Positions 26,171 through 42,668 are shown, counted from the first letter of the stretch. The stretch is 64,000 bases of DNA from an uncultured bacterium (GCA_946548895.1 CAMNQF010000001.1:141024-205023), one strand, 5' to 3'. The notes: generated by a model from the sequence alone, not told the origin. Made by a program: numbers and translations.

Positions 26171-26361
26171 TGTGCAGACCGCACAAGATTTTTCGCCCAT
26201 TTATGGGCGACGGCCCAAAAAAGTTCTTATTTTCTTCAATTATATCAAAAAAATAAGCAAAAATCAACTACGTGAGACGGAGAAAGAGCTGGGAACGCAG
26301 GGGTCTTGTGTGCAATTTCCACAAAATGGCCTCTCAAAAAATGATATGTGCAAAAAGCACA
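26171..26361. promoter_or_regulatory. Three TGTGC-N5-(G/C)CACA palindromic operator-like sites
   Basis: 26171 TGTGCagaccGCACA, 26309 TGTGCaatttCCACA, 26347 TGTGCaaaaaGCACA, in the divergent PucR/esterase intergenic region. Confidence 0.65.
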
Positions 26362-26491
26362 AAGTCTTTGGGCCGAGGGCACCTGTAAGCTGGTGATTTT
26401 TTGTGGTAGGATAAAAACAACAGCTTCCCCCAACGCACCGCCGCAAAGGGGGAAGCGAAGAGAAAACAGGAGCCAAGAAGGAGGAACAAAG

Positions 26492-29400
26492 ATGAAGAAA
26501 CGAATTCCCGCCCTGGCGTTGGCGCTGGCGGTCCTGATGACCGCGCTCCCGGTCAGGGCCCTCGCTTACAGCGACGTCTCGGGGCACTGGGCGCAGGGCG
26601 CCATTGAGAACAGTGAGAAGAGCGGATTCCTGGGCGGCTATGGGGACGGGACCTTCCGGCCCGACCAGCCGGTCACAGGCGCCGAGTTGGCCGGCGCCCT
26701 GAACAGCCTGCTGGGGACCAAGCTCCAGAGCTCCGCCCCCAGCCTGACCCGGCAGGACGCGGTGGTGATGATCGCCAAGGCGGTGAACATGGCCCCCGCG
26801 GATCAGGCTGAAGTGTCATTCGCCGACGCCGGCTCGATTTCCGCCGGCGCGCTGCCTTACGTGAACGCCATGGCTAACGGCGGCTATGTGAGGGGTTCCG
26901 CCGGACGGTTCCACCCCACCGCCGCCATGACCCGCGGAGAAGCCGCCACCGTGCTGGACAACCTCACCGACGGGGGCAGGGCGGTGGCAAAAGCTGATTC
27001 CGGCACCTACATTGGAAAGGTAATGAAGTCCAACGGCACCATTGCCTATCAAGGTATTCAATATGCCACGCATGAACGTTGGGAAGCGCCTGTTATGATT
27101 TCCGGGCGAAGCGATGTGATCCCCGCGCTGAACTTTGGCCCAAACTCCATTGACGGGTATGAAGACGACCTGAATCTCGTGGTTTATGTCAACCCCAACT
27201 CCACAAACCCCAATAAGTCGGTCTTTATGTGGCAGTATGGCTGCGGCCAGCGGGGCGGTGATACCGCAAACCATGATTGGAGCGGCTTTGTCGCCGAAAA
27301 CCCTGATATTATTGTTGTCACCCCCAACCATAGAGGCAATTTCTGGGGCAGCATTGATCTGAGCCAGCTACAGGGTTATGATGCTGTCGCCGATAAGTAT
27401 CAGTACTCCAACAATCTTGCCCGCCTTGACCTTCTAACCTGCTTGAAATGGATTAACAAGAACATCGCCGCATTCGGCGGCAACCCCAGGGACGTGACCA
27501 TCGGCGGCCAGTCCTCCGGTTCCAACAACTGTACCTGTCTCCTCATGATGGAAGAGGCTCATCCCTATTTCCAGAAGGCAATCATGGAGTCGTCTTTCTC
27601 TGTGGACATCTCTCTCCAGCCGTTGGATGACGCCAAATTTGTCTCTCAGCAGCTCTTTAACGAGCTGGGCGTGACTACGGTGGAGCAGCTTCTTGCCTGC
27701 ACTCCCGAGCAGATTAACGCCGTGAAGGATAAGTTCCTTTCCGCTTCCGCCAGCGGGTCTTCCGCCTTTGCCGAGATCGAATGCAAACTGTTCAGCCCGG
27801 TGGTGGACGGCGTTGTCATCCCCAATGACTACTATGAGTGCCTGATGAACGGTTCTCTTGCGGGCATCAAGTGCGTCTTTGGGTCCAATGCAGGCGAGTA
27901 TGACCAGCAGTATCTCAATAAGGACAAGACCCGTTACACAGACGAAGAGGCATTGGCCTTCACCGTGGAGCAGAACTGGGGCAAGCTGTCCGACCGCGGC
28001 TGGAACAAAGACAACGCCCAATCCGTGATTGACCAGTTCTACAGCCACAACGCCGAGTACGGGCGGGACAATTTTACTGCCGCCAAGGATTTGAAGAACG
28101 ATCTTTATCTCCGCATCGGTTCCCTGATGTATGCGGAGGCGGCCAGTGGATACACGGACGTTTATATGTACTACAATACCTTTGACGCGACACCGGCCGG
28201 GACTGCCCTCGATGATGATATCCGTGCCGCTCACGGCTCTGAGGTCAAGGTGATCAGCCGTAACTGGAGTGATCTGGAAAAGCCTGGCGCCCTGTTTGAT
28301 GTCGATCCGAACGCCCGCGAGTTTGCTTCCATGCTCAGCAACATCTGGGCCGCCTTTATCCGTACCGGCGATCCCAACTGTGCGGAAATCAAGGACAAGG
28401 GCGTTACCTGGACCAAATACGATTCCACCAGCCACAACACCCTGGTCATTGACGCCAAGCCCCAGATGGTCCAAGGCGTGCGGCAGAAGGACGTGGACCT
28501 GCTCATGCCGCTGTTCCGGGAGTATCCCCTGCTTCAGAATTTGAAGGTATCCTCCCCCGGCGTGTATTCCGGCTATAGCCGGGTTGAGTATGACGGCTAC
28601 AAGCGTTACAGCGTATACGTTCCCGTCAGCGACGGCACCAGGCTGGCTGTGGACTACTGCATCCCCACCAAGGACGGCGTGGAGGCCGGGGGCAAGTTCC
28701 CCGTGGTGTTTACCTATACTCCCTATGGCCGCCAGCGCGCCGATAACGCGGCCAGCGCCGAGTGGTTTACCAAGCACGGCTATATTTTCGCGGCCGCTGA
28801 CGCCCGGGGCATGGGGGCCTCTTTCGGCACCCGCGATTCCGCCAACTCCCCCCAGGAGGCCCAGGACGGCGCGGATGTGGTGGCCTGGATCCACGCCCAG
28901 AGCTGGTGCGACGGCAAAATCGGCACCATCGGCTCCTCCTATGTGGGCCAGACTCAGCTGGCCATTCTGAGCAAGACCAAACTGGTGGACGCCTCGGTCA
29001 TCGGCTGCACCGACTATAACAAGTATGACGGGTGGATCCGGGGGGGCGTGCCCCGCGCCTTCGGCTCCCAGCCGGACACCATGTGGGGTGAGACTGAGGC
29101 GGAGATCGCCGCCACCATCCAAAAGACGGTGGACAGCACCCCGGCCGTGGACGCTGACGCCGATAAAAAGCTCCTGGCCCAGGCCATCGCCGGTCATGTG
29201 GACAACGGCCTTCAGATCCCCATGTTCCAGCGCCTGCTCTGGCGGGACAGCTACTCCGAGGAAGTGGGCGGCGAATACTGGAACCTGGTCAGCGCCAGCA
29301 CCAACAAGCAGGCCATCAACGACTCCGGCTCCGCCATCTATCTGATGGGCGGCCTGTACGACGTATTCCGCCGGGATACCATCGTGACCTACCACAACCT

Positions 29401-30247
29401 GACCGGGCCCAAGAAGATGACCATCGGCCCCTGGTATCACACCAAGGCCAAGGTGGACCCGAACTGGGAGGTGGAGCAGCTGCGCTGGTTTGATTACTGG
29501 CTCAAGGGCATCGAAAACGGCGTCATGGATGAGGACCCCATTTACCTGAAAACCGCCAACCAGAGCGCGGACAACGGCTATACCTGGCTGAAGGAATGGC
29601 CCATGGACCAAGGCGGCAGCACCGCCATGTACCTGAACCGCGACGGCCGGCTCTCCCAGCAGAAGGCCGCGCAAGACAGCTTTATGGACTACGACGTGGT
29701 CTATGGCATTACCACCGGCGTGGAATCCGCCTCTTCCGCCGATGTGGACGCCAAGGGCCTGTGCTTTACCACCGCCCCCATGGACAAGGATTTCCGAATT
29801 TCCGGCCATGCCATGGCCCACATCAATTTTGAGATGCTCACGGACGACAAGGACATCGACTTCTTTGTCACGGTGTCCGACTATGATCCCGCCACCGGGG
29901 AGGCGTTTGTCTTTGACGACGGCCACCTGCGGGCGTCCCTGCGCCAGAGCAGCCAGGCTCCCTACAATTACCTGGGCCTGCCCTGGTTCAAGGCGGAGCA
30001 GGGAGACAACCAGTACCTGTCGAAGGGCCAGGTTTACAGTCTGGAATTTGACCTGATGCCCACCTCCTACATCATTCCGCGGGGCCATTGCCTGCGCGTC
30101 ACCGTCTCCAACTCCATGGACCGCTTCTATTACCTGGGCCGCGGGGAGTTTGAGGCCGACCCCAAGTGCGAGACGCCTGACATCCGGCTGTACACCGGGG
30201 GCGCGAACGCGTCCTATGTGGAATTCCCGGATATGCTGGCGGAATGA
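26492..30247 (+). CDS. Secreted SLH-domain protein with type-B carboxylesterase domain fused to CocE/NonD (X-Pro dipeptidyl-peptidase-like) hydrolase
   Basis: Signal peptide MKKRIPALALALAVLMTALPVRALA, SLH-like YSDVSGHWAQ...; carboxylesterase GGQSSGSNN and AAFGGNPRDVT; CocE-like GTIGSSYVGQTQLAI plus C-terminal beta domain. Confidence 0.85.
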   Translation: MKKRIPALALALAVLMTALPVRALAYSDVSGHWAQGAIENSEKSGFLGGYGDGTFRPDQPVTGAELAGALNSLLGTKLQSSAPSLTRQDAVVMIAKAVNMAPADQAEVSFADAGSISAGALPYVNAMANGGYVRGSAGRFHPTAAMTRGEAATVLDNLTDGGRAVAKADSGTYIGKVMKSNGTIAYQGIQYATHERWEAPVMISGRSDVIPALNFGPNSIDGYEDDLNLVVYVNPNSTNPNKSVFMWQYGCGQRGGDTANHDWSGFVAENPDIIVVTPNHRGNFWGSIDLSQLQGYDAVADKYQYSNNLARLDLLTCLKWINKNIAAFGGNPRDVTIGGQSSGSNNCTCLLMMEEAHPYFQKAIMESSFSVDISLQPLDDAKFVSQQLFNELGVTTVEQLLACTPEQINAVKDKFLSASASGSSAFAEIECKLFSPVVDGVVIPNDYYECLMNGSLAGIKCVFGSNAGEYDQQYLNKDKTRYTDEEALAFTVEQNWGKLSDRGWNKDNAQSVIDQFYSHNAEYGRDNFTAAKDLKNDLYLRIGSLMYAEAASGYTDVYMYYNTFDATPAGTALDDDIRAAHGSEVKVISRNWSDLEKPGALFDVDPNAREFASMLSNIWAAFIRTGDPNCAEIKDKGVTWTKYDSTSHNTLVIDAKPQMVQGVRQKDVDLLMPLFREYPLLQNLKVSSPGVYSGYSRVEYDGYKRYSVYVPVSDGTRLAVDYCIPTKDGVEAGGKFPVVFTYTPYGRQRADNAASAEWFTKHGYIFAAADARGMGASFGTRDSANSPQEAQDGADVVAWIHAQSWCDGKIGTIGSSYVGQTQLAILSKTKLVDASVIGCTDYNKYDGWIRGGVPRAFGSQPDTMWGETEAEIAATIQKTVDSTPAVDADADKKLLAQAIAGHVDNGLQIPMFQRLLWRDSYSEEVGGEYWNLVSASTNKQAINDSGSAIYLMGGLYDVFRRDTIVTYHNLTGPKKMTIGPWYHTKAKVDPNWEVEQLRWFDYWLKGIENGVMDEDPIYLKTANQSADNGYTWLKEWPMDQGGSTAMYLNRDGRLSQQKAAQDSFMDYDVVYGITTGVESASSADVDAKGLCFTTAPMDKDFRISGHAMAHINFEMLTDDKDIDFFVTVSDYDPATGEAFVFDDGHLRASLRQSSQAPYNYLGLPWFKAEQGDNQYLSKGQVYSLEFDLMPTSYIIPRGHCLRVTVSNSMDRFYYLGRGEFEADPKCETPDIRLYTGGANASYVEFPDMLAE

Positions 30248-30396: not shown

Positions 30397-30622
30397 GCCG
30401 GCGGTTTCCGGCCTCCCGCCGGGCCAGCCTGCAGGCAGAGGACCGCTGAAAAAGCCCTTGCGCTATGCCAGCTTTTGCGCTACAATAGAACCGCGAAAAC
30501 AGGGCGCCCCGGCCGCTCGCGCAATGGCATGACCCCATCCCGGGCCCATTGGGGGGATGCCGCCTTCCTGTCCGCCGGCCTTTCCGATGTGCCCGCCGAA
30601 CGCTGAGGAGGAGAAATGCGCC

Positions 30623-31988
30623 GTGGAATTAGACCTGACACAGCGGCAGGGACAAACGCTCTCCCCCAGATGATACAATCCGCGGCAGTGCTCCAGATGG
30701 CCGCCCAGGAGCTTGGGGAGTACTTGGAGACGGTCCTCCAGGAGAACCCCGTTTTGGAACTGGAGGAATCCTTCAGCCCTCCCGACGCGGGGGACGACCT
30801 GCGGCGGAAATTGGAGTGGCTGGAGTCCAATGACCCGCAAAACAGGGAATATCATTGGCAGGACGCTCAGGCCGACGCGGATCCCCTGCGCAATTGCGGC
30901 GCCACGGGACGCGAACAGGAGAGCCTCTACCACTATCTGCGGCTTCAGCTGGAAGCGATGCGGCTGGACAGGCGCACAGCGGAATGCGCGCGGCTGCTGG
31001 CGGCCAGCCTGAATCAAAACGGCTGGCTGGATGAGGAACTCTCCGCGCTGGCCCTGGAAACGGGGCAGCCTGTCAGCGCCATAGAGCGGGCGTTAGAAGT
31101 GGTTCAGTCGCTGGACCCTGCCGGGGTGGCAGCGAGAAATCTGACAGAATGCCTGCGCCTCCAATTGGTCCGGCAGCGGCCAATCAACGAATTGGCGGTA
31201 CGGATTGCCGAGGGGTACTTGGACGCGCTTGCCAAAAACAGGTACGGCCTTATCGCGTGCTCGTTAGGGGTAGCGCGGGATGAGGCGTTCGCCGCCTGTG
31301 AATTAATCCGAAGCCTGAACCCCCGCCCCTGCGCTGATTTCACCGCCGGCAGGGGCCCCGCCTACATAACCCCCGATATCATTGTGTCGGGGGACGCCGG
31401 CCATTTTGAGCTGGCATATAACGACCGGCTTTTCCCGACCCTGAACATCAGTTCCTACTATACGAAATTGCTGCGAGAAAGTGACGACGAACAGGTGAGG
31501 GACTATCTCGCCGGCAAGCTTCGTCAGGCAAAGTGGACAATTCGCGCAGTAGATCAGCGGAAAACGACCCTTACCGTATGTGTGCAGTGCATCTTGGAGG
31601 CGCAGGAGGACTTTTTCCGCCTGGGGGAAGGCCATTTAAAGCCTTTGTCGCTGGCGGACATAGCGCGGCGGGTCGGCCTCCATGAATCGACTGTGAGCCG
31701 CGCGGTAAGCGGGAAGTACCTGCAATGCCCACGGGGGACGTACCCCTTGAGCTATTTCTTTTCCAGGCGTCTGGGCCCGGACGAGGGGGGGGGGAAAGCA
31801 TTTCCGCTGACGGCGCAAAGTCCCTGCTGAAGGAGCTGATTGAGGGCGGGGACCGGCGCAAGCCCTTATCCGACCAGAAGCTGTGCGAGCGCATGGCTGC
31901 CAAGGGCTGTGTGCTTTCGCGCCGGACAGTGGCGAAATATCGGGATGAATTGGGGATACCTGGGACCGGCGGCAGAAAACGCGGCTGA
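30623..31988 (+). pseudogene. rpoN: RNA polymerase sigma-54 factor RpoN, reading frame broken twice (frameshifted gene)
   Basis: N-terminus V(M)ELDLTQRQGQTLSP starts at GTG 30623, frame lost at the C5 tract (30663-30667); main body 30616-31830 frame (MIQSAAVLQMAAQELGEYLETVLQENPVLELEE ... LADIARRVGLHESTVSRAVSGKYLQCPRGTYPLSYFF); C-terminus with RpoN box SRRTVAKYRDELGIP only in the next frame after the G10 tract (31785-31794). Confidence 0.88.
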
Positions 31989-32007: not shown

Positions 32008-32060
32008 GAGGGTATTGGGGACGTTTCTAAAAGAAGCGCCCCCAATACCCTCGTCATTTT
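32008..32060 (+). terminator. Terminator after rpoN
   Basis: gagggtattgggg ... ccccaataccctc 13-bp arms followed by gtcatttt. Confidence 0.8.
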
Positions 32061-32301
32061 CATAAGGCGAAGCGGCTAGCGCGGCGATCTTATGTTCGCG
32101 CCTTCCCGGCAGCTTATCTTATATTATAACATTTTTTGCAAGCAGGTATGGTGTTTTGCGTATACTGTGCTATAATATGGGTAAGCGGACAAAAAGTTAC
32201 CATTTATTTCCTTCCAAGTGGAATATTTGAACTGTATGGCGCGTTACGGCCGGCGGGCGGATTTTAGGCGGCGCTTACTCGCAGGAAGAGGGAGGTATGA
32301 T

Positions 32302-34959
32302 ATGGAACAGTACGATCATGTACGGAATATCAGCAGAAGCCTGGGCTATGATCGGTTGCTGCCCCTGCAGGAAAAGGCATTTCGAATGCCGGAACTCTAC
32401 GACCCGAGTAAAAACATCTTTGTTACGGGAAACACTTCCAGCGGCAAAACGCTGATTCCGCTTCTCCACTACATTCTCGAGCGGGAGAAAAATCCTGCGT
32501 ACAAAATGCTGTTTCTTGTGCCATACCGGGCGCTGGCCGCGCAAAAGAAGCTGGAGATTGAGGAACTCCTGCGCAAAAAATTTTCGGAACTGAGTGTTTG
32601 CGTCTCAACGGGCGAACTGCGGGACGACGACAGGGACGTCAGAACAGGACTTGCGGATGTCGCGATTGTTATTTATGAAAAGGCGTATCATTTTGCCTGC
32701 TGCATACCAGATTTCTTGAAGCGCTATCACACCGTTGTTTATGACGAATTCGCGTTAAGCGAGGATGAGCAGCGCGGTGTGGCCTGTGACCTGATGCTGC
32801 TCCAGGGTATGAGTTCGTCCTGCAGGCTATTTGTCCTCTCCACCCCGCACTACAGCTGGGGCGAATATATCCACGGCGGGAATTTTACTCCCGTACAGGT
32901 TCTGGAACATGAGAGCCGGTCCGTGGTTCCCCGGGAGGAAATCCCTATTTTCCTGGATCGGTGCGCCAAGGGCAGCAAGGCGGCCGAGTTTCACGATTAC
33001 AATAAGCGCCCGCTGGGCATGGAAAAGGTTCGGGAACGCGGCTCAAAGAATGATTTGATCGAAGACCTCTGCGCGATGCATCTGGAGCGGGGACATCGGA
33101 TCTTGGTGTTCATGAACAATTGCCAGGAGGTGCGCCGGATGGCCAACGAGCTTGGACGGCGCCTGCAGGAGAAAAAGCCCGAGCTGCTTCATCCGCTGGG
33201 GCCGGACGAAGATGAGGATTGGTGTTTTCGCAATGTTTTGGATGAGACCGGCCTTTTGGAGGAGGACCTCCTCGGATTGATGAATCCACAGGAATGCGTC
33301 TTGTTCCGGCAGGGGATTGCGTATCACAACAGTTGGCTGAGGTATGAGCTCCGCACGCTGGTGGAAAAAGAATTGCTGACCGACAAGGGCTGCCTGAATG
33401 TCGTGTTCTCAACGGAGACAATGGCCTATGGAATTAACAGCAGCGTGGATGTCGTCATCGTGGCGGATATGTACAAAAACATATGGGAGTACAGGTCCTG
33501 CCGCAGGCCGGACAAAAATGGCCGTATGAAGGCCCGCACGATCAATCGGGAGTACACCGCGTTCTTAAAGGTAAACGAGTATCAGAACTATATTGGCCGC
33601 GCCGGACGGTATGGCCGCACGCAAAAAGGATACGCCTACGCGTTAATGACGCAGACTCCGGGCAAATCTGACATTCGGAGCTCATGGGACAAACTGATGA
33701 AGCAGCGCGACGACCCTCCCCGCGCGAGGAGCACGCTGCTGAAGCTGGACGCCTACTGCAATAGGGAATGCGAGCGCAAGGATCATTGCGCGGGCAGCAG
33801 CTGCCAGAAGTGCAGCCTCTATGCCAATGAATTCGCCATGCCGGTCCTGAGTTTAATCCCCCCGGAGGGAATCACCTTCCGGCAGATCAGGGAGCGCCTC
33901 CTGTGGCTGCCCGGCATAGATAAAAATATGTCTTGGCTGGACAGAAACATTGAAAACGCGCTGCGGCGCTTGGTGTACCGAACGGGGCCCGCCCGCTGGG
34001 TGAGGGCAAAAAAAAATACGGGACCGATATATTCCAGGCGGTATTATCTCACCAAGGCGGGACAGGCTGTCTGCGGTATGCTGACCACCATGTATGAATG
34101 TGACTGCCTGAGAAAGTACCTGTCTGGACAGCAGGCAGAGGCCTCGGACAAGATGGAACCGCGGAATCTTCTCCGCCTGATGACGCTTGATCCCTTCGAC
34201 CTGTTTTATGAACTGTGCGTGTTGCCGGAGCTCCAAAAAATTGCGGAGGATTTTTTTGGCATCAACGACTCCAGTTCCAGCGAGGGACGCAAGTGGCTTT
34301 CCGTTTACAACGACCTTTGCACCAGAAAGCTTTCGGCATATTATAACACGCGCAAAAAATGTATCTCGCTAAAGCTGTACGAACGGTTGACCATTCCGTC
34401 GGGGAACAGGCACGTGTACCGCATCACAAATCCCTTTGACACGTACCGGCTGCTGCTTGCCATTACGATCTACGAGTGGTACCGCACCGCGTCGATCCGT
34501 GAGCTCGATAGGGATTTGAACTCAGTGCCGGGAACAGTGGTCATCACGACGGGCCGAATCTCTCACCTGACGCAGCAAACTTCCTTTTATTTGCAAATCC
34601 TTGCCGCAATGTGTGATACCATGCTGGATCCAGCCTATGAGGAGATCAAAGCCCTTTTGCTTCGGATGGAGCTTTGCCTCTACTTTGGAATCCGGGAAAG
34701 CAACGCGACGGTGATTCCCGTGGAAGAACTGCGCCAGCTTACACGGCGGCAGCAATCGGCCGTCTCCAGGATTATGGAATTTTGCTCAAATTCCCCGCCG
34801 GCGCCAATACGCGAGGAACTGACCAAGCGGCAAATTCGGGACTGGAAGCAGCTGCTTCACACGATGAGCGATCTTCCGGCAGATGGCACGGCGGCCGTTC
34901 TTTTGAAAAAGAAGTATCCGATCCTGGTTGAAGCAGAACAAGAATTTAAGAAACCGTAA
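32302..34959 (+). CDS. Ski2-like superfamily 2 DEAD/DEAH helicase with Cys cluster (first gene of two-helicase operon)
   Basis: NIFVTGNTSSGKTLIPLL (motif I), VVYDEFALSEDE (motif II), VVFSTETMAYGIN, NYIGRAGRYGRTQKG (motif VI); Cys cluster CNRECERKDHCAGSSCQKC; ATG 32302 with GGGAGG RBS. Confidence 0.85.
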   Translation: MEQYDHVRNISRSLGYDRLLPLQEKAFRMPELYDPSKNIFVTGNTSSGKTLIPLLHYILEREKNPAYKMLFLVPYRALAAQKKLEIEELLRKKFSELSVCVSTGELRDDDRDVRTGLADVAIVIYEKAYHFACCIPDFLKRYHTVVYDEFALSEDEQRGVACDLMLLQGMSSSCRLFVLSTPHYSWGEYIHGGNFTPVQVLEHESRSVVPREEIPIFLDRCAKGSKAAEFHDYNKRPLGMEKVRERGSKNDLIEDLCAMHLERGHRILVFMNNCQEVRRMANELGRRLQEKKPELLHPLGPDEDEDWCFRNVLDETGLLEEDLLGLMNPQECVLFRQGIAYHNSWLRYELRTLVEKELLTDKGCLNVVFSTETMAYGINSSVDVVIVADMYKNIWEYRSCRRPDKNGRMKARTINREYTAFLKVNEYQNYIGRAGRYGRTQKGYAYALMTQTPGKSDIRSSWDKLMKQRDDPPRARSTLLKLDAYCNRECERKDHCAGSSCQKCSLYANEFAMPVLSLIPPEGITFRQIRERLLWLPGIDKNMSWLDRNIENALRRLVYRTGPARWVRAKKNTGPIYSRRYYLTKAGQAVCGMLTTMYECDCLRKYLSGQQAEASDKMEPRNLLRLMTLDPFDLFYELCVLPELQKIAEDFFGINDSSSSEGRKWLSVYNDLCTRKLSAYYNTRKKCISLKLYERLTIPSGNRHVYRITNPFDTYRLLLAITIYEWYRTASIRELDRDLNSVPGTVVITTGRISHLTQQTSFYLQILAAMCDTMLDPAYEEIKALLLRMELCLYFGIRESNATVIPVEELRQLTRRQQSAVSRIMEFCSNSPPAPIREELTKRQIRDWKQLLHTMSDLPADGTAAVLLKKKYPILVEAEQEFKKP

Positions 34960-34974
34960 GGGAAAGGGGCTATT

Positions 34975-37900
34975 ATGACATTACGCGAACGCTTGGAAGA
35001 GCATAAGCTCAACGGCGAGACATTTGCCGCCGGCCGTGAGACACATAACAATTGGGACGGGCAACTGACCGCGATGCAGGACGCGGTGCTGGCGGACGAG
35101 CATTTTTGGGACACGGCGAAGAACCTGATTATCCAGGGCGCCACCTCCAGCGGAAAAACGCTCCTTGCGGAGATCGCGGCTTACCGTCAGATCACGGATG
35201 AGAAAATCTGGCGCAAGAAAGTCATTTTTTTGGTTCCCCTGCGCGCGCTTGTCACCGCGCAGTGCAATCAAATCAAGCGCGATTTTCAGAACGTCACGCT
35301 CAATGGGAAACATCTCGAAATTTTTGAGTCTTCCGCGGACTATCAGGACCACGACGCGCAGATCATGATGGGCGATTATGACATCGCGGTAATCGTCTAT
35401 GAAAAGTTTTTCGCCCTGTTGAGCAGTGGGCAGAGCCGGGAAAACAATATGCTGAAAAACTGCGGGCTCGTTATCGTCGACGAATTGCAGATGCTCTCCA
35501 CAAAAGACCGCGGCCCTAAAATGGAGTTTTCCATTATGCGCCTGCTGGAAATGCACCGGGTCAAGGAAGAGGGAGACGAGGAGCCGGAGGAAAATATCCG
35601 CATTATTGGCCTGACGACGTCGGAGAGCGGCGTGGAGGACCTCGGCGCCTGGATGAAGGCCAATATAGTCGGGAACGCGATTCGCCCTGTCCCCCTGCGG
35701 CAGTACATCGTGTCCTATGACACGGGCAAAATGATGTATAAAGACATTGCCGGAGAGGGAGACCCCGCAAAACCCGATGACGCGAATGGGAACCCCGACA
35801 AGGTTGAGGAGATTTCATTGCTGGCCAAGTTTGATTCCGGCAATTGCGATAAGGACAAGAAACAACGCTGCCTGTACTCTCTTCTGGCAACCTGGCTGGA
35901 GCCGAACAAGGAAAAGAAAATCCTGATTTTTACGAACGCCAAGTGGAACACGCGGGAAATCGCCAATGGAATTGTCCGAAAATTCCCGCAGTTTGAGCCG
36001 CCGGCCGCGGAAAATGCCGAGAGGCGGGCGGAGCTGAGGGAACAGTTCCACAGGGTTCTGGTGGAATTCAGCGACGAGGATGGCGTAAACGACCTGGAAA
36101 GGCTTATCTCAAAGGGAGTGGCGTTCCATCACTCCGGCCTTCCCGCGATAGTGCGTACCATGATTGAGGATGATTTTCGCGACGAGAACGGGCATATTCA
36201 AATCGTCGTATGCACGGAAACCCTGATGGTTGGAATGAATCTTCCCGCCGACATCGTCATTCTGTATGACGGCACGACGTACCGCGGGGGCAAAATCCCA
36301 GTGCCGCTTTCCGTGCAATCGTATAACAATTTTGTGGGGCGCGCCGGGCGCCTGGGGATGAATAGCGCCCCCAATTACCGCGGCAAGAGCTATCTCCTGA
36401 CGGAAAACCTGGAGCGCGATTACAGCCGGTATACCGCCGACAGGAAGACTGCCGTCAAGTCGTCTTTCCGTTCCGGCAGCCCGGAGGTGCTGGCGCCGTA
36501 TTTTCTCAACTGGATCGGCAAAGAGCATACGGTGGAGGAGCGGATTCAGAGCGGCCTGCGCATCAACTTCTGCTACCACAAAGAAATATGGGACGAAGCA
36601 GTTATCAAAAAAGACGCCGAAGCGATTTTGGACCAGCTGAAAAACGCCGTTCCCACCCCCCAAAAGCGGCTGATTATAAAACGGAAAAATGGGAGCCATA
36701 TTTTGTCGAATTTGGGGAACGCGCTGGCGCCTTATGCGCTTAACCTTGACACCTGCAAAATCCTGATCGAGTATATGCTCCAAAAACCCATTTCTGAATC
36801 AGATATTTGGTTCTTAGCCCCGGACGACGAGTCCAGCGTCTGCCCGCCAAAGCCGCTGATTGAATTGATTTTGACAATCTGCTCCTGCGAGGAAGTGGAT
36901 AAAAGCCCGGCAATCAGCGTTTTTGGAAATGAGAGCGAGGTCAAGGCGCTGAACCGGTCGCTTCAGGACTATTTGAAGCAAATCTATCCCAAGCGGCAGG
37001 ATGAGGAGCCCCAGGAGGACGAATGGGACTGCGAGGACGAGGACGCCTGTAAAAAGCTTACGCGGATAGCGTACAGCAGCTATATTGCCGAGCCGGAGGA
37101 ATTGCGCCAGGTTGTCCGCACCCTGATTCTATGCCTCTGGCTGGCAGGATACCGCGTGAGAAAAATCAAGGAGATCCTCCGGCTGAACAGCGCGGCATTT
37201 TCGACCAGCGATATCGAGAGAATCTCCGAGGCCGCCGCCTACCTGGTGGAAGCCGCGAGCAAATGCCAGGACATCCTGCTTGACTCCAAAGACGCCCCGG
37301 CTTTGTACCGGCTGTCCATTCGAATGAAGTACGGCATCCCGCATGAGCTGCACTGCCTGGCCAATACCCATGTGCGCGGGATCACGCGCAATCAGCTGCT
37401 AACCATTTGGCGTAAGGCCCAGCAGGTGCACAAAACGCCGCGGGATTACATCATGGCAAGCTTTAATCCGCATCATCAAGCATTGCGGAAAGCGCTGCAG
37501 GCCCGCGAAAGGGTTAACAACTACTACCAGCAGATTGAGAATATTCAAGAAGAGGACCAGTCCCATATCTGCAAGGAACTCTCCTCCCATCTGCAGAATA
37601 TGGATATGCACTCCGGCGCCGGGGCGCGAGGGTGCCGGGATGCGATACACAGCATTCTGACCGCCGTTTCCGAAAGGCAGGAGAACGGCTGGTCAATTAT
37701 ACCTGCGCAGAATGAGTTGGAATTTACTTTTATGACAGAGAACCAACGCTCTTACTGCCTGCGCTTTGGATTGTTTGACATGGGCGAAAATAGCGATGAA
37801 TGGTTCACGCAAATTAGAGACTTTGATTGCCAGCCCACCCGGGACCGCAACCAACATCAAGTAAACATAGCGGTCCTGTATGGCGCGCCGCCGGCGGGAG

Positions 37901-38907
37901 AGGAGCGCCTCCCGCCAAACCTGCTGGTGATCTCCAGCGAGCTGCTCGGCGTTTTGCTGGCAAAATGCGTGCGCGACAGCGCGGGGGCCGATCCGGTAAA
38001 GCTGATTTACCGCATACTGTCCGACTTGCAAGGCAGCTTCATCTTGAATGGCGCCTCGTTCTTCCGGGCATATGGCCCTATCTCCGACCTCATCAAGGGA
38101 TATTTGCATACCGAACCAGACAAAACAAAGCCAGGGCTGCTGTATTACAGCGGCGTAGCCGATCCTGGAGCCGGTTCGCCCTGCGCGGTTGTCCCCTGGG
38201 GGGATATCGGCGAAGAAGAGAAGAAATTGTTCAAGCCAATCATTGCTTTTTACCACCCGGCTCTCCTTTTCAGCAAGACGGCCAAAGCGCTGCTGCAGGA
38301 GTGCGGCACCATCCTTTGTTCGGAGGACGACTATGAAACCGTCGAAAAAGATTACGGCAGCAAGGAAATCACAGTCATAAAAAACAGCGACATCAATGAT
38401 GCGTTAGAGGTTGTTGTCAAAACGATTCATCAGCCCGCGCACGTTAATTATGAATTTGATTTTGGGATTTCACTGCGCGGGCGCTATCTGGATAAAATGA
38501 ACCTGCTGAAGGGGGAGCTGGAAAAGTGCGGCAAGCGGGTTCTCCTGATGGAAAAGGATGACTTCCCGCAGCGCATAGCTGGAAGCGGTCTCATTGAAGC
38601 GCTCCATAGAGAATTTTCCCGCTGCCGCCATATCGTGATCTGCGATACGATTGACTACGATCAGAGCCCGTACACCGCGATGGTCGAGTTGAATGTTGTC
38701 ATGGATAAAATCTTTTCGGCGCTGAACACAGGCTGCCGCTATCCGATTTACCGGGTGAGGATGCCGGATGTGGAGCCAAGCCATGTTTTGAAGTGCCTGT
38801 TCCGCGACGATGACGACACCTATTCTGACGGCGACGTCCATGGGCTGGCGCAGCGTCTTGTTGATAAAAGCGAGGCGGTCGACAAGAGCAACCAATCCAC
38901 CCCTTGA
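34975..38907 (+). CDS. Ski2-like superfamily 2 helicase with C-terminal TIR-like domain (second gene of two-helicase operon)
   Basis: NLIIQGATSSGKTLLAEIAAYR, GLVIVDELQML, VVCTETLMVGMNLPADIVILYDG, NFVGRAGRLGMNS; C-terminal YEFDFGISLRGRYLDKMNLLKGELEKCGKRVLLMEKDDFPQRIAGSGLIEALHREFSRCRHIVICDTIDYDQSPYTAMVEL resembles bacterial TIR domains. Confidence 0.85.
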   Translation: MTLRERLEEHKLNGETFAAGRETHNNWDGQLTAMQDAVLADEHFWDTAKNLIIQGATSSGKTLLAEIAAYRQITDEKIWRKKVIFLVPLRALVTAQCNQIKRDFQNVTLNGKHLEIFESSADYQDHDAQIMMGDYDIAVIVYEKFFALLSSGQSRENNMLKNCGLVIVDELQMLSTKDRGPKMEFSIMRLLEMHRVKEEGDEEPEENIRIIGLTTSESGVEDLGAWMKANIVGNAIRPVPLRQYIVSYDTGKMMYKDIAGEGDPAKPDDANGNPDKVEEISLLAKFDSGNCDKDKKQRCLYSLLATWLEPNKEKKILIFTNAKWNTREIANGIVRKFPQFEPPAAENAERRAELREQFHRVLVEFSDEDGVNDLERLISKGVAFHHSGLPAIVRTMIEDDFRDENGHIQIVVCTETLMVGMNLPADIVILYDGTTYRGGKIPVPLSVQSYNNFVGRAGRLGMNSAPNYRGKSYLLTENLERDYSRYTADRKTAVKSSFRSGSPEVLAPYFLNWIGKEHTVEERIQSGLRINFCYHKEIWDEAVIKKDAEAILDQLKNAVPTPQKRLIIKRKNGSHILSNLGNALAPYALNLDTCKILIEYMLQKPISESDIWFLAPDDESSVCPPKPLIELILTICSCEEVDKSPAISVFGNESEVKALNRSLQDYLKQIYPKRQDEEPQEDEWDCEDEDACKKLTRIAYSSYIAEPEELRQVVRTLILCLWLAGYRVRKIKEILRLNSAAFSTSDIERISEAAAYLVEAASKCQDILLDSKDAPALYRLSIRMKYGIPHELHCLANTHVRGITRNQLLTIWRKAQQVHKTPRDYIMASFNPHHQALRKALQARERVNNYYQQIENIQEEDQSHICKELSSHLQNMDMHSGAGARGCRDAIHSILTAVSERQENGWSIIPAQNELEFTFMTENQRSYCLRFGLFDMGENSDEWFTQIRDFDCQPTRDRNQHQVNIAVLYGAPPAGEERLPPNLLVISSELLGVLLAKCVRDSAGADPVKLIYRILSDLQGSFILNGASFFRAYGPISDLIKGYLHTEPDKTKPGLLYYSGVADPGAGSPCAVVPWGDIGEEEKKLFKPIIAFYHPALLFSKTAKALLQECGTILCSEDDYETVEKDYGSKEITVIKNSDINDALEVVVKTIHQPAHVNYEFDFGISLRGRYLDKMNLLKGELEKCGKRVLLMEKDDFPQRIAGSGLIEALHREFSRCRHIVICDTIDYDQSPYTAMVELNVVMDKIFSALNTGCRYPIYRVRMPDVEPSHVLKCLFRDDDDTYSDGDVHGLAQRLVDKSEAVDKSNQSTP

Positions 38908-41627: not shown

Positions 41628-42668
41628 ATGTCCAGTCAGGAAGCGGCTTTTATCGTTGACGCGGTTGAAAAGAAGCATTCACTCCTTTTCAGCCTATGCA
41701 GCGCATCAGCGCCCCATAGGCCGCAAATCGGCCGCGCGCCGGACAACATAGACAGTGTGCGGGCGTTGCCCGGCAGCGGCACCGCCGCTGTTCGAAAACC
41801 GATAAGACCGACTTTCCAGTGCGCTGACGGCACAATCCATGCCGGCCATATCGCCCAATATGCGGCACACCTCCAGGAAGAGGAGCGGGCAAAAAACACC
41901 ATAAAGAAATATGTCCATGATCTTCACGGCCTAATGGCGTTTTTGAGCGGACAGCCAATCACAAAAGGGGCTGTGATTGCGTGGAAAGAACACTTGGCGG
42001 AAATCTATGCCCCGGCCACTGTCAATTCCATGCTGGCGGCGGCCAATGGCTTTTTCCGTTTTATGGACTGGCCGAAGCTGTCTGTCAGGCCGCTGAAGAT
42101 ACAGCGCCCCCTTTTCTGCGACGAAAGCCGGGAAATGACCCGCGCTGAATATGTACGTTTGGTGGATGAGGCCCGGCGGCAGGGAAATGAGCGGCTGGCC
42201 CTGCTGCTTCAGACGGTATGCGCCACCGGCATCCGGGTGTCGGAACTTCGGTTTATCACTGTGGAAGCGGTGAACCTGGGCCGGACGGCGGTCAGCAACA
42301 AGGGGAAGCGGCGAACTGTCTTTCTGCCGGGGAAGCTGTGCGGGCTGCTGAAAAAATACCTGAAAAAGCAAAAAATCACCGATGGATCGGTGTTTGTGAC
42401 GCGGACGGGAAAGCCCTTGGACCGCTCCAATATTTGGCGTGACATGAAAGCCTTGTGTGAGCGCGCCGGGGTGGAGCCGGGCAAGGTGTTCCCCCACAAC
42501 CTGCGGCACCTGTTTGCCCGGACGTATTACGCGCTGGAAAAGGATTTGTCCCGGCTGGCGGATATTTTGGGCCATTCCAACATCAGTACCACCCGTATTT
42601 ATACCGCGGAGAGCGGTTCTGTTCACGCTCGGCAAATGGAGCGGCTGGGGCTGATCCTTACAACTTAA
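41628..42668 (+). CDS. Tyrosine recombinase (XerC/D-like integrase family)
   Basis: SAM-like N-terminal domain; catalytic ATGIRVSELR, SNKGKRRTVFLP, PHNLRHLFA, LGHSNISTTRIY. Confidence 0.93.
   Translation: MSSQEAAFIVDAVEKKHSLLFSLCSASAPHRPQIGRAPDNIDSVRALPGSGTAAVRKPIRPTFQCADGTIHAGHIAQYAAHLQEEERAKNTIKKYVHDLHGLMAFLSGQPITKGAVIAWKEHLAEIYAPATVNSMLAAANGFFRFMDWPKLSVRPLKIQRPLFCDESREMTRAEYVRLVDEARRQGNERLALLLQTVCATGIRVSELRFITVEAVNLGRTAVSNKGKRRTVFLPGKLCGLLKKYLKKQKITDGSVFVTRTGKPLDRSNIWRDMKALCERAGVEPGKVFPHNLRHLFARTYYALEKDLSRLADILGHSNISTTRIYTAESGSVHARQMERLGLILTT

Follow-up and report, generated by a model that had tools for sequence, protein, structure and literature searches.

How bacterial TIR proteins recognize infection is, to our knowledge, known for only a few systems. 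The trigger of one staphylococcal Thoeris system is the phage capsid (PMC12578639) and that of Swarozyc is the portal (PMC13174449). We describe here a locus from an uncultured bacterium, contained in a 64,000-nucleotide stretch of DNA (GCA_946548895.1 CAMNQF010000001.1:141024-205023), which we call the window and from whose first letter all positions are counted. Two adjacent helicase genes on its + strand, H1 and H2, span positions 32302–38907, and the second carries a predicted TIR domain at its C-terminal end. Considering the gene pair, its motifs, the predicted TIR fold and the effector genes found beside relatives, we propose that H1 and H2 probably constitute a nucleic-acid sensor of two helicases that switches on a TIR consuming nicotinamide adenine dinucleotide (NAD+), with phage defence as the likely purpose.

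The two genes are intact open reading frames (ORFs), each with a ribosome-binding site, separated by 15 nt. This agrees with an earlier note on this DNA, which had described two large helicases of 885 and 1310 amino acids (aa) with motifs I, II and VI. Pfam assigns DEAD and Helicase_C domains to both products, and the best NCBIfam matches of both are Hel308-type ATP-dependent DNA helicases, although far under the equivalog cut-offs. H1 (32302–34959, 885 aa) has intact motifs I (GNTSSGKT, aa 43–50, 32428–32451), II (VVYDEFAL, aa 145–152, 32734–32757) and VI (NYIGRAGR, aa 429–436, 33586–33609). Its AlphaFold2 model (mean predicted local distance difference test (pLDDT) score 73.4), compared by fold search, resembles archaeal Hel308 and the human Pol-theta helicase along the greater part of the chain (best E 5.5e-22, target template modelling (TM) score 0.58–0.74), with HamB and Brr2 ranking lower among the matches. 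H1 is a Hel308-like superfamily 2 (SF2) helicase. H2 (34975–38907, 1310 aa) likewise retains motifs I (GATSSGKT, aa 55–62, 35137–35160), II (VIVDELQM, aa 166–173, 35470–35493) and VI (NFVGRAGR, aa 452–459, 36328–36351), and its sequence marks it as a Hel308/Ski2-like SF2 helicase.

The predicted TIR domain comprises residues 1156–1310 of H2 (38440–38904). Sequence profiles having been weak, its identity was settled by a fold search, in which a model of residues 812–1310 was compared with the PDB using Foldseek. From about residue 1161 onward, the model follows the alternating strand–helix order of a TIR. The top matches are TIR domains at probability 1.00, most with a target TM of 0.56–0.70, and include MyD88, TLR1 and the bacterial proteins AbTir, PdTIR and BtTir; SpbK and SPARTA were matched at probability 0.99. 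Weak matches to Cap4 SAVED had probabilities of 0.2–0.4 and a root-mean-square deviation of about 20 Å. By predicted fold, the C terminus of H2 is thus clearly a TIR, as the earlier note had read it. Seven TIR residues are invariant in eight aligned H2 proteins: G1164, S1166, L1178, C1217, D1224, Y1228 and E1238. The last of these (codon 38686–38688) is the putative catalytic residue, and appears, by alignment rather than superposition, to sit where TIR NADases place their catalytic glutamate. An alpha/beta domain with invariant W1075, G1076 and E1082 precedes the TIR (aa ~1030–1155, 38062–38439). Profile searches gave E 7e-5 for the TIR of the Gemmiger orthologue within the whole protein and E 5.8e-6 for the best family fragment. 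The TIR profile found no TIR match among PDB sequences and no useful alignment to the single TIR protein of the window's own genome, and the Gemmiger TIR fragment matched nothing among plasmids and phages.

The pair is conserved as a unit. A scan of relatives covering one genome per species, to which a whole-genome search added one locus (L104), placed the full pair in the window and in seven other genomes, and H1 lies directly upstream of H2 wherever the neighbouring DNA is present. The closest of these loci, from Gemmiger sp. An50 (L006), has an H1 55% identical and an H2 41–42% identical to those of the window. The others come from an Oscillospiraceae metagenome-assembled genome (MAG; L007), two Lachnospiraceae (L008 and L017) and three Negativicutes, namely Quinella (L009), a Selenomonadales MAG (L011) and L104. 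In a ninth locus, L010, H2 lies at a contig edge and is the only one of the two genes on the contig. Pairwise identities of H1 and of H2 across the loci are correlated (r=0.91), to which shared ancestry contributes. Codon comparison indicates that the pair is under purifying selection, with dN/dS between L008 and L017 of about 0.16 for H1, 0.12 for H2 and 0.23 for the TIR part. The system is sporadic in distribution: H2 was not found in 41 other genomes of the genus, and H1 occurred only in its own genome among 388 genomes of the class and 396 of the order. In a search with an H1 profile, three of 300 genomes from Quinella's class yielded the pair, and a 1003-aa frame gave one additional helicase match; among 396 Lachnospiraceae, the profile recovered the pair in the two genomes already found. 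Phage records and plasmids yielded matches to the helicase core only and no copy of the pair; IMG/VR, searched with H2 alone, with an alignment of H2 and caspase-helicases, and with H1 and H2 alignments, returned nothing or two weak core matches. In Gemmiger, a TraG-type coupling protein of a type IV secretion system and a ClpP-family protease are encoded directly upstream of H1 (L006 3970–6267), which suggests a mobile element there.

New evidence on what the TIR might do comes from the genes flanking the relatives. In L008, the end of H2 shares 4 nt with a gene for a 297-aa TM-macro ThsA, the effector of Thoeris (PF20016 ThsA_Macro, 135 bits; PADLOC ThsA1, 200 bits), and L017 has a gene 74% identical to it in the same place. 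Each is the only PF20016 gene in its genome, and no separate ThsB-like protein was recognized by eye among the neighbouring ORFs of either locus. L008 also carries Menshen NsnA/NsnB-like genes downstream. In L009, L011 and L104, a 100-aa RyR-domain protein (PF02026) is encoded directly upstream of H1, and none of these genomes has a second PF02026 match at E 0.001. Also upstream, L009 and L011 encode a protein with a kinase part, a Card1-endonuclease part and an RyR-like stretch; in L010, a 995-aa homologue lacking the kinase part has a 4-nt overlap with the end of H2. Rossmann-RyR-Card1-nuclease proteins flank the operon in L009, L010 and L011. TM-macro ThsA binds adenosine diphosphate ribose (ADPR) and imidazole adenine dinucleotide (IAD) and oligomerizes (PMC11204291), and phage RyR-domain proteins bind or cleave the cyclic ADPR isomers 2'cADPR and 3'cADPR (PMC13232231). 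Of the nine loci, six are thus flanked by sensors or effectors of NAD-derived signals, namely L010 and five that have the full pair; at these loci the neighbours suggest that the TIR synthesizes a signal. ThsA and RyR are independent pointers to a TIR that makes NAD-derived signals.

These observations can be combined into a model. H1 and H2 would together sense abnormal DNA or RNA, such as intermediates of phage replication or exposed ends; nucleic-acid binding and ATP-driven movement would release or cluster the TIR of H2, which would then consume NAD+. We propose the release step by analogy with HamB, the Ski2-like helicase of Hachiman, which activates its effector upon encountering DNA ends, its movement on them setting the effector free (PMC12278908). 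In the relatives, the TIR product may be a signal read by the co-encoded TM-macro ThsA, acting at the membrane, or by the Rossmann-RyR-Card1 nuclease, which would cut nucleic acid. From the genes and predicted folds, we infer nucleic-acid sensing and its ligand, NAD+ cleavage, the signal, the order of events and the role in phage defence. A broader claim, that a sensor of two helicases stands in for ThsB, produces an ADPR-type messenger and works through effectors that can be swapped (macro-membrane or RyR-nuclease), amounting to a new class of TIR signalling, seems to us evenly balanced between right and wrong. If true, bacteria would have in the pair a counterpart to RIG-I and similar helicase sensors, one connected to TIR signalling. 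With a TIR built into a pair of helicases, nucleic-acid sensing by a TIR could be tested directly, and the exchange between ThsA-macro and RyR-Card1 effectors predicts which type of messenger each clade produces.

Several observations weigh against a sensor switching on an NAD+-consuming TIR. By sequence, the C terminus of the window's H2 matches TIR_2 only at E 0.009, under the Pfam cut-off; the best Foldseek E of its C-terminal model is just 1.7e-3, and the mean pLDDT of the model is 64.8, with the TIR segment mostly above 60 and much of it at 77–91. The residue before the 'IS' of strand 1, G1164, is glycine in every family member. Many NADase TIRs seem to have phenylalanine or alanine before 'IS', the positions being presumed equivalent. 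No known effector gene adjoins the pair in the window or L006, and the L007 locus is truncated by the end of its contig. Moreover, neither PF20016 (ThsA-macro) nor PF18185 (STALD) was found in the window's own genome. This genome does contain a single RyR gene, unlinked to the pair, whose product is a membrane-Rossmann-RyR protein and next to which a separate TIR protein is encoded (L142 3598–6827, C10); RyR and TIR_2 are Pfam matches, and the membrane and Rossmann parts were read from the sequence. In the window, the TIR may therefore act alone by depleting NAD+, which would be simplest, or feed this unlinked RyR membrane protein.

The first of these options is close to the direct abortive NAD+ depletion put forward in the earlier note, which holds as the simplest account only at loci without a neighbouring effector, such as that of the window, and sits poorly with the signal synthesis indicated in six of the nine loci. 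Developed into an alternative for the whole system, it describes stand-alone abortive infection: the H2 TIR hydrolyses NAD+ once the helicases engage, and the ThsA and RyR neighbours are clade-specific additions, uninformative for the window. The lack of adjoining effectors in the window and L006 and of ThsA-macro or STALD genes in the window's genome fits this view, as does the position of the window and L006 on a separate branch, 24–27% identical to other H2 proteins. Homologous TIRs in six other loci nevertheless sit with signal-binding effectors, and the unlinked TM-Rossmann-RyR gene offers a possible partner in the genome itself; we consider stand-alone action a serious contender, at somewhat short of even chances.

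Two further explanations were weighed and set aside. That the pair is a housekeeping unit for DNA repair or RNA quality control, related to Hel308 and Brr2 and not to defence, might be supposed from the resemblance of H1 and H2 to Slh1/ASCC3, Brr2, Hel308 and Pol theta, and from the position of the pair between rpoN and mnmA in the window. It is improbable given the absence of H2 from all 41 other members of the genus, the confinement of H1 to its own genome among the 396 of the order, the TIR tail, and the ThsA, RyR/Card1 and Menshen neighbours in relatives. Still less credible, to the point where we would be surprised to see it borne out, is a Hachiman relative with H2 as its HamB-type helicase and H1 in the role of HamA. 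HamB models do give the best PADLOC matches (H2, 99.5 bits; H1, 63.9 bits), and the H1 model resembles HamB among others. These matches, however, span the helicase core only, Hel308 and Pol theta are closer to H1 by fold, H1 is itself a full helicase, and neither protein has a DUF1837 match.

Comparison with known systems places the pair, acting as the two-helicase TIR sensor that we favour, with TIR-based, Thoeris-like immunity. L008 and L017 resemble Thoeris with TM-macro ThsA in that a TIR protein and a TM-macro ThsA share one apparent transcription unit; they differ in that the TIR is the tail of a helicase of ~1375 aa preceded by another helicase, and a separate ThsB was not seen among the neighbouring ORFs. 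The window has a TIR-domain protein by predicted fold, but no ThsA beside the pair or in the genome, and because this partner is missing we do not place the pair in Thoeris itself. In Hachiman (HamAB), too, an effector is driven by a Ski2/Hel308-like helicase presumed to sense nucleic acid (PMC12278908), whereas the pair lacks a DUF1837 HamA and has two helicases and a TIR output. Nezha (SIR2-HerA) similarly couples a motor ATPase to an NAD-consuming enzyme (PMC11559045), but does so with HerA and SIR2, whose families are not those of H1/H2 and TIR. Hel308, the Pol-theta helicase and Brr2, with which H1 shares a full-length fold (target TM as above for Hel308 and Pol theta), are cellular repair or splicing proteins of about 14–17% identity that lack a TIR. 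No PADLOC model spans more than the helicase cores of H1 and H2, and the earlier note likewise recognized no named system with this exact pair. No description of a helicase-TIR system was found in the open-licence literature searched, and one may exist elsewhere.

Beyond the pair, a caspase-type motif is present at the N terminus of 70 of 74 other relatives of the H2 helicase core, and Pfam Peptidase_C14 was confirmed in all six of the caspase-helicases scanned. These proteins (PF00656 + DEAD) have the closest widespread core, including the C-terminal Hel308-like region, and share with H2 a fused death-type effector; they differ in being encoded by one gene, with an N-terminal caspase instead of a C-terminal TIR and no H1. 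Caspase and TIR are thus at least two unrelated death-type effectors that occur attached to an H2-like core, consistent with a sensor whose outputs can be exchanged. The literature search found no description of the caspase-helicases either. Their single-gene loci (L012–L085) are spread over Proteobacteria, Actinomycetota, Bacteroidota, Cyanobacteria and others.

The H1 reading frame starts at ATG 32302, with GGGAGG at about 32290–32295. A start at GTG 32218 (913 aa) was considered, but the added stretch has no counterpart in the Gemmiger orthologue, and the ATG is preferred. Four cysteines encoded at 33757–33813, common to the Gemmiger orthologue and absent from the other H1 proteins, form a cluster that is possibly a zinc knuckle. 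The ribosome-binding site of H2 (GGAAAGGGG, 34961–34969) lies inside the 15-nt gap. No gene besides H1 and H2 is found between rpoN and mnmA; the latter is convergent, as previously noted, with 35 nt between its end and the H2 stop. Between rpoN and H1, the supposed terminator at 32008–32060 forms a strong hairpin (−41.6 kcal/mol, z −6.1 versus shuffles), but the T run behind it is weak and a consensus terminator scan did not list it, leaving a hairpin that is terminator-like. It is followed by an extended −10 promoter-like box (TGCTATAAT, 32168–32176), identified by consensus match only.

A lower G+C content, as expected for an acquired cassette, had also been suggested. H1 (53.7%) and H2 (54.0%) are indeed below rpoN (61%), mnmA (66.5%) and the window as a whole (61.0%), but the region at 40–45 kb is likewise at 52–54%, so composition alone is no proof of acquisition. 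In an empty-site comparison, the congeners examined did not have rpoN beside mnmA and showed no synteny past mnmA; insertion at this site could therefore not be shown. A tyrosine recombinase (Phage_integrase) is encoded at 41628–42668, about 2.7 kb past the operon. On the other side, rpoN (30616–31988) consists of two frames joined at a ten-G run (about 31785–31795): its 404-aa ORF lacks the RpoN box, which sits in the overlapping frame, reflecting either a sequencing error or a phase-variable tract. Upstream of rpoN, a very large single ORF (26348–30247) fuses S-layer homology domains to a carboxylesterase and an X-Pro dipeptidyl-peptidase (S15 + PepX_C).

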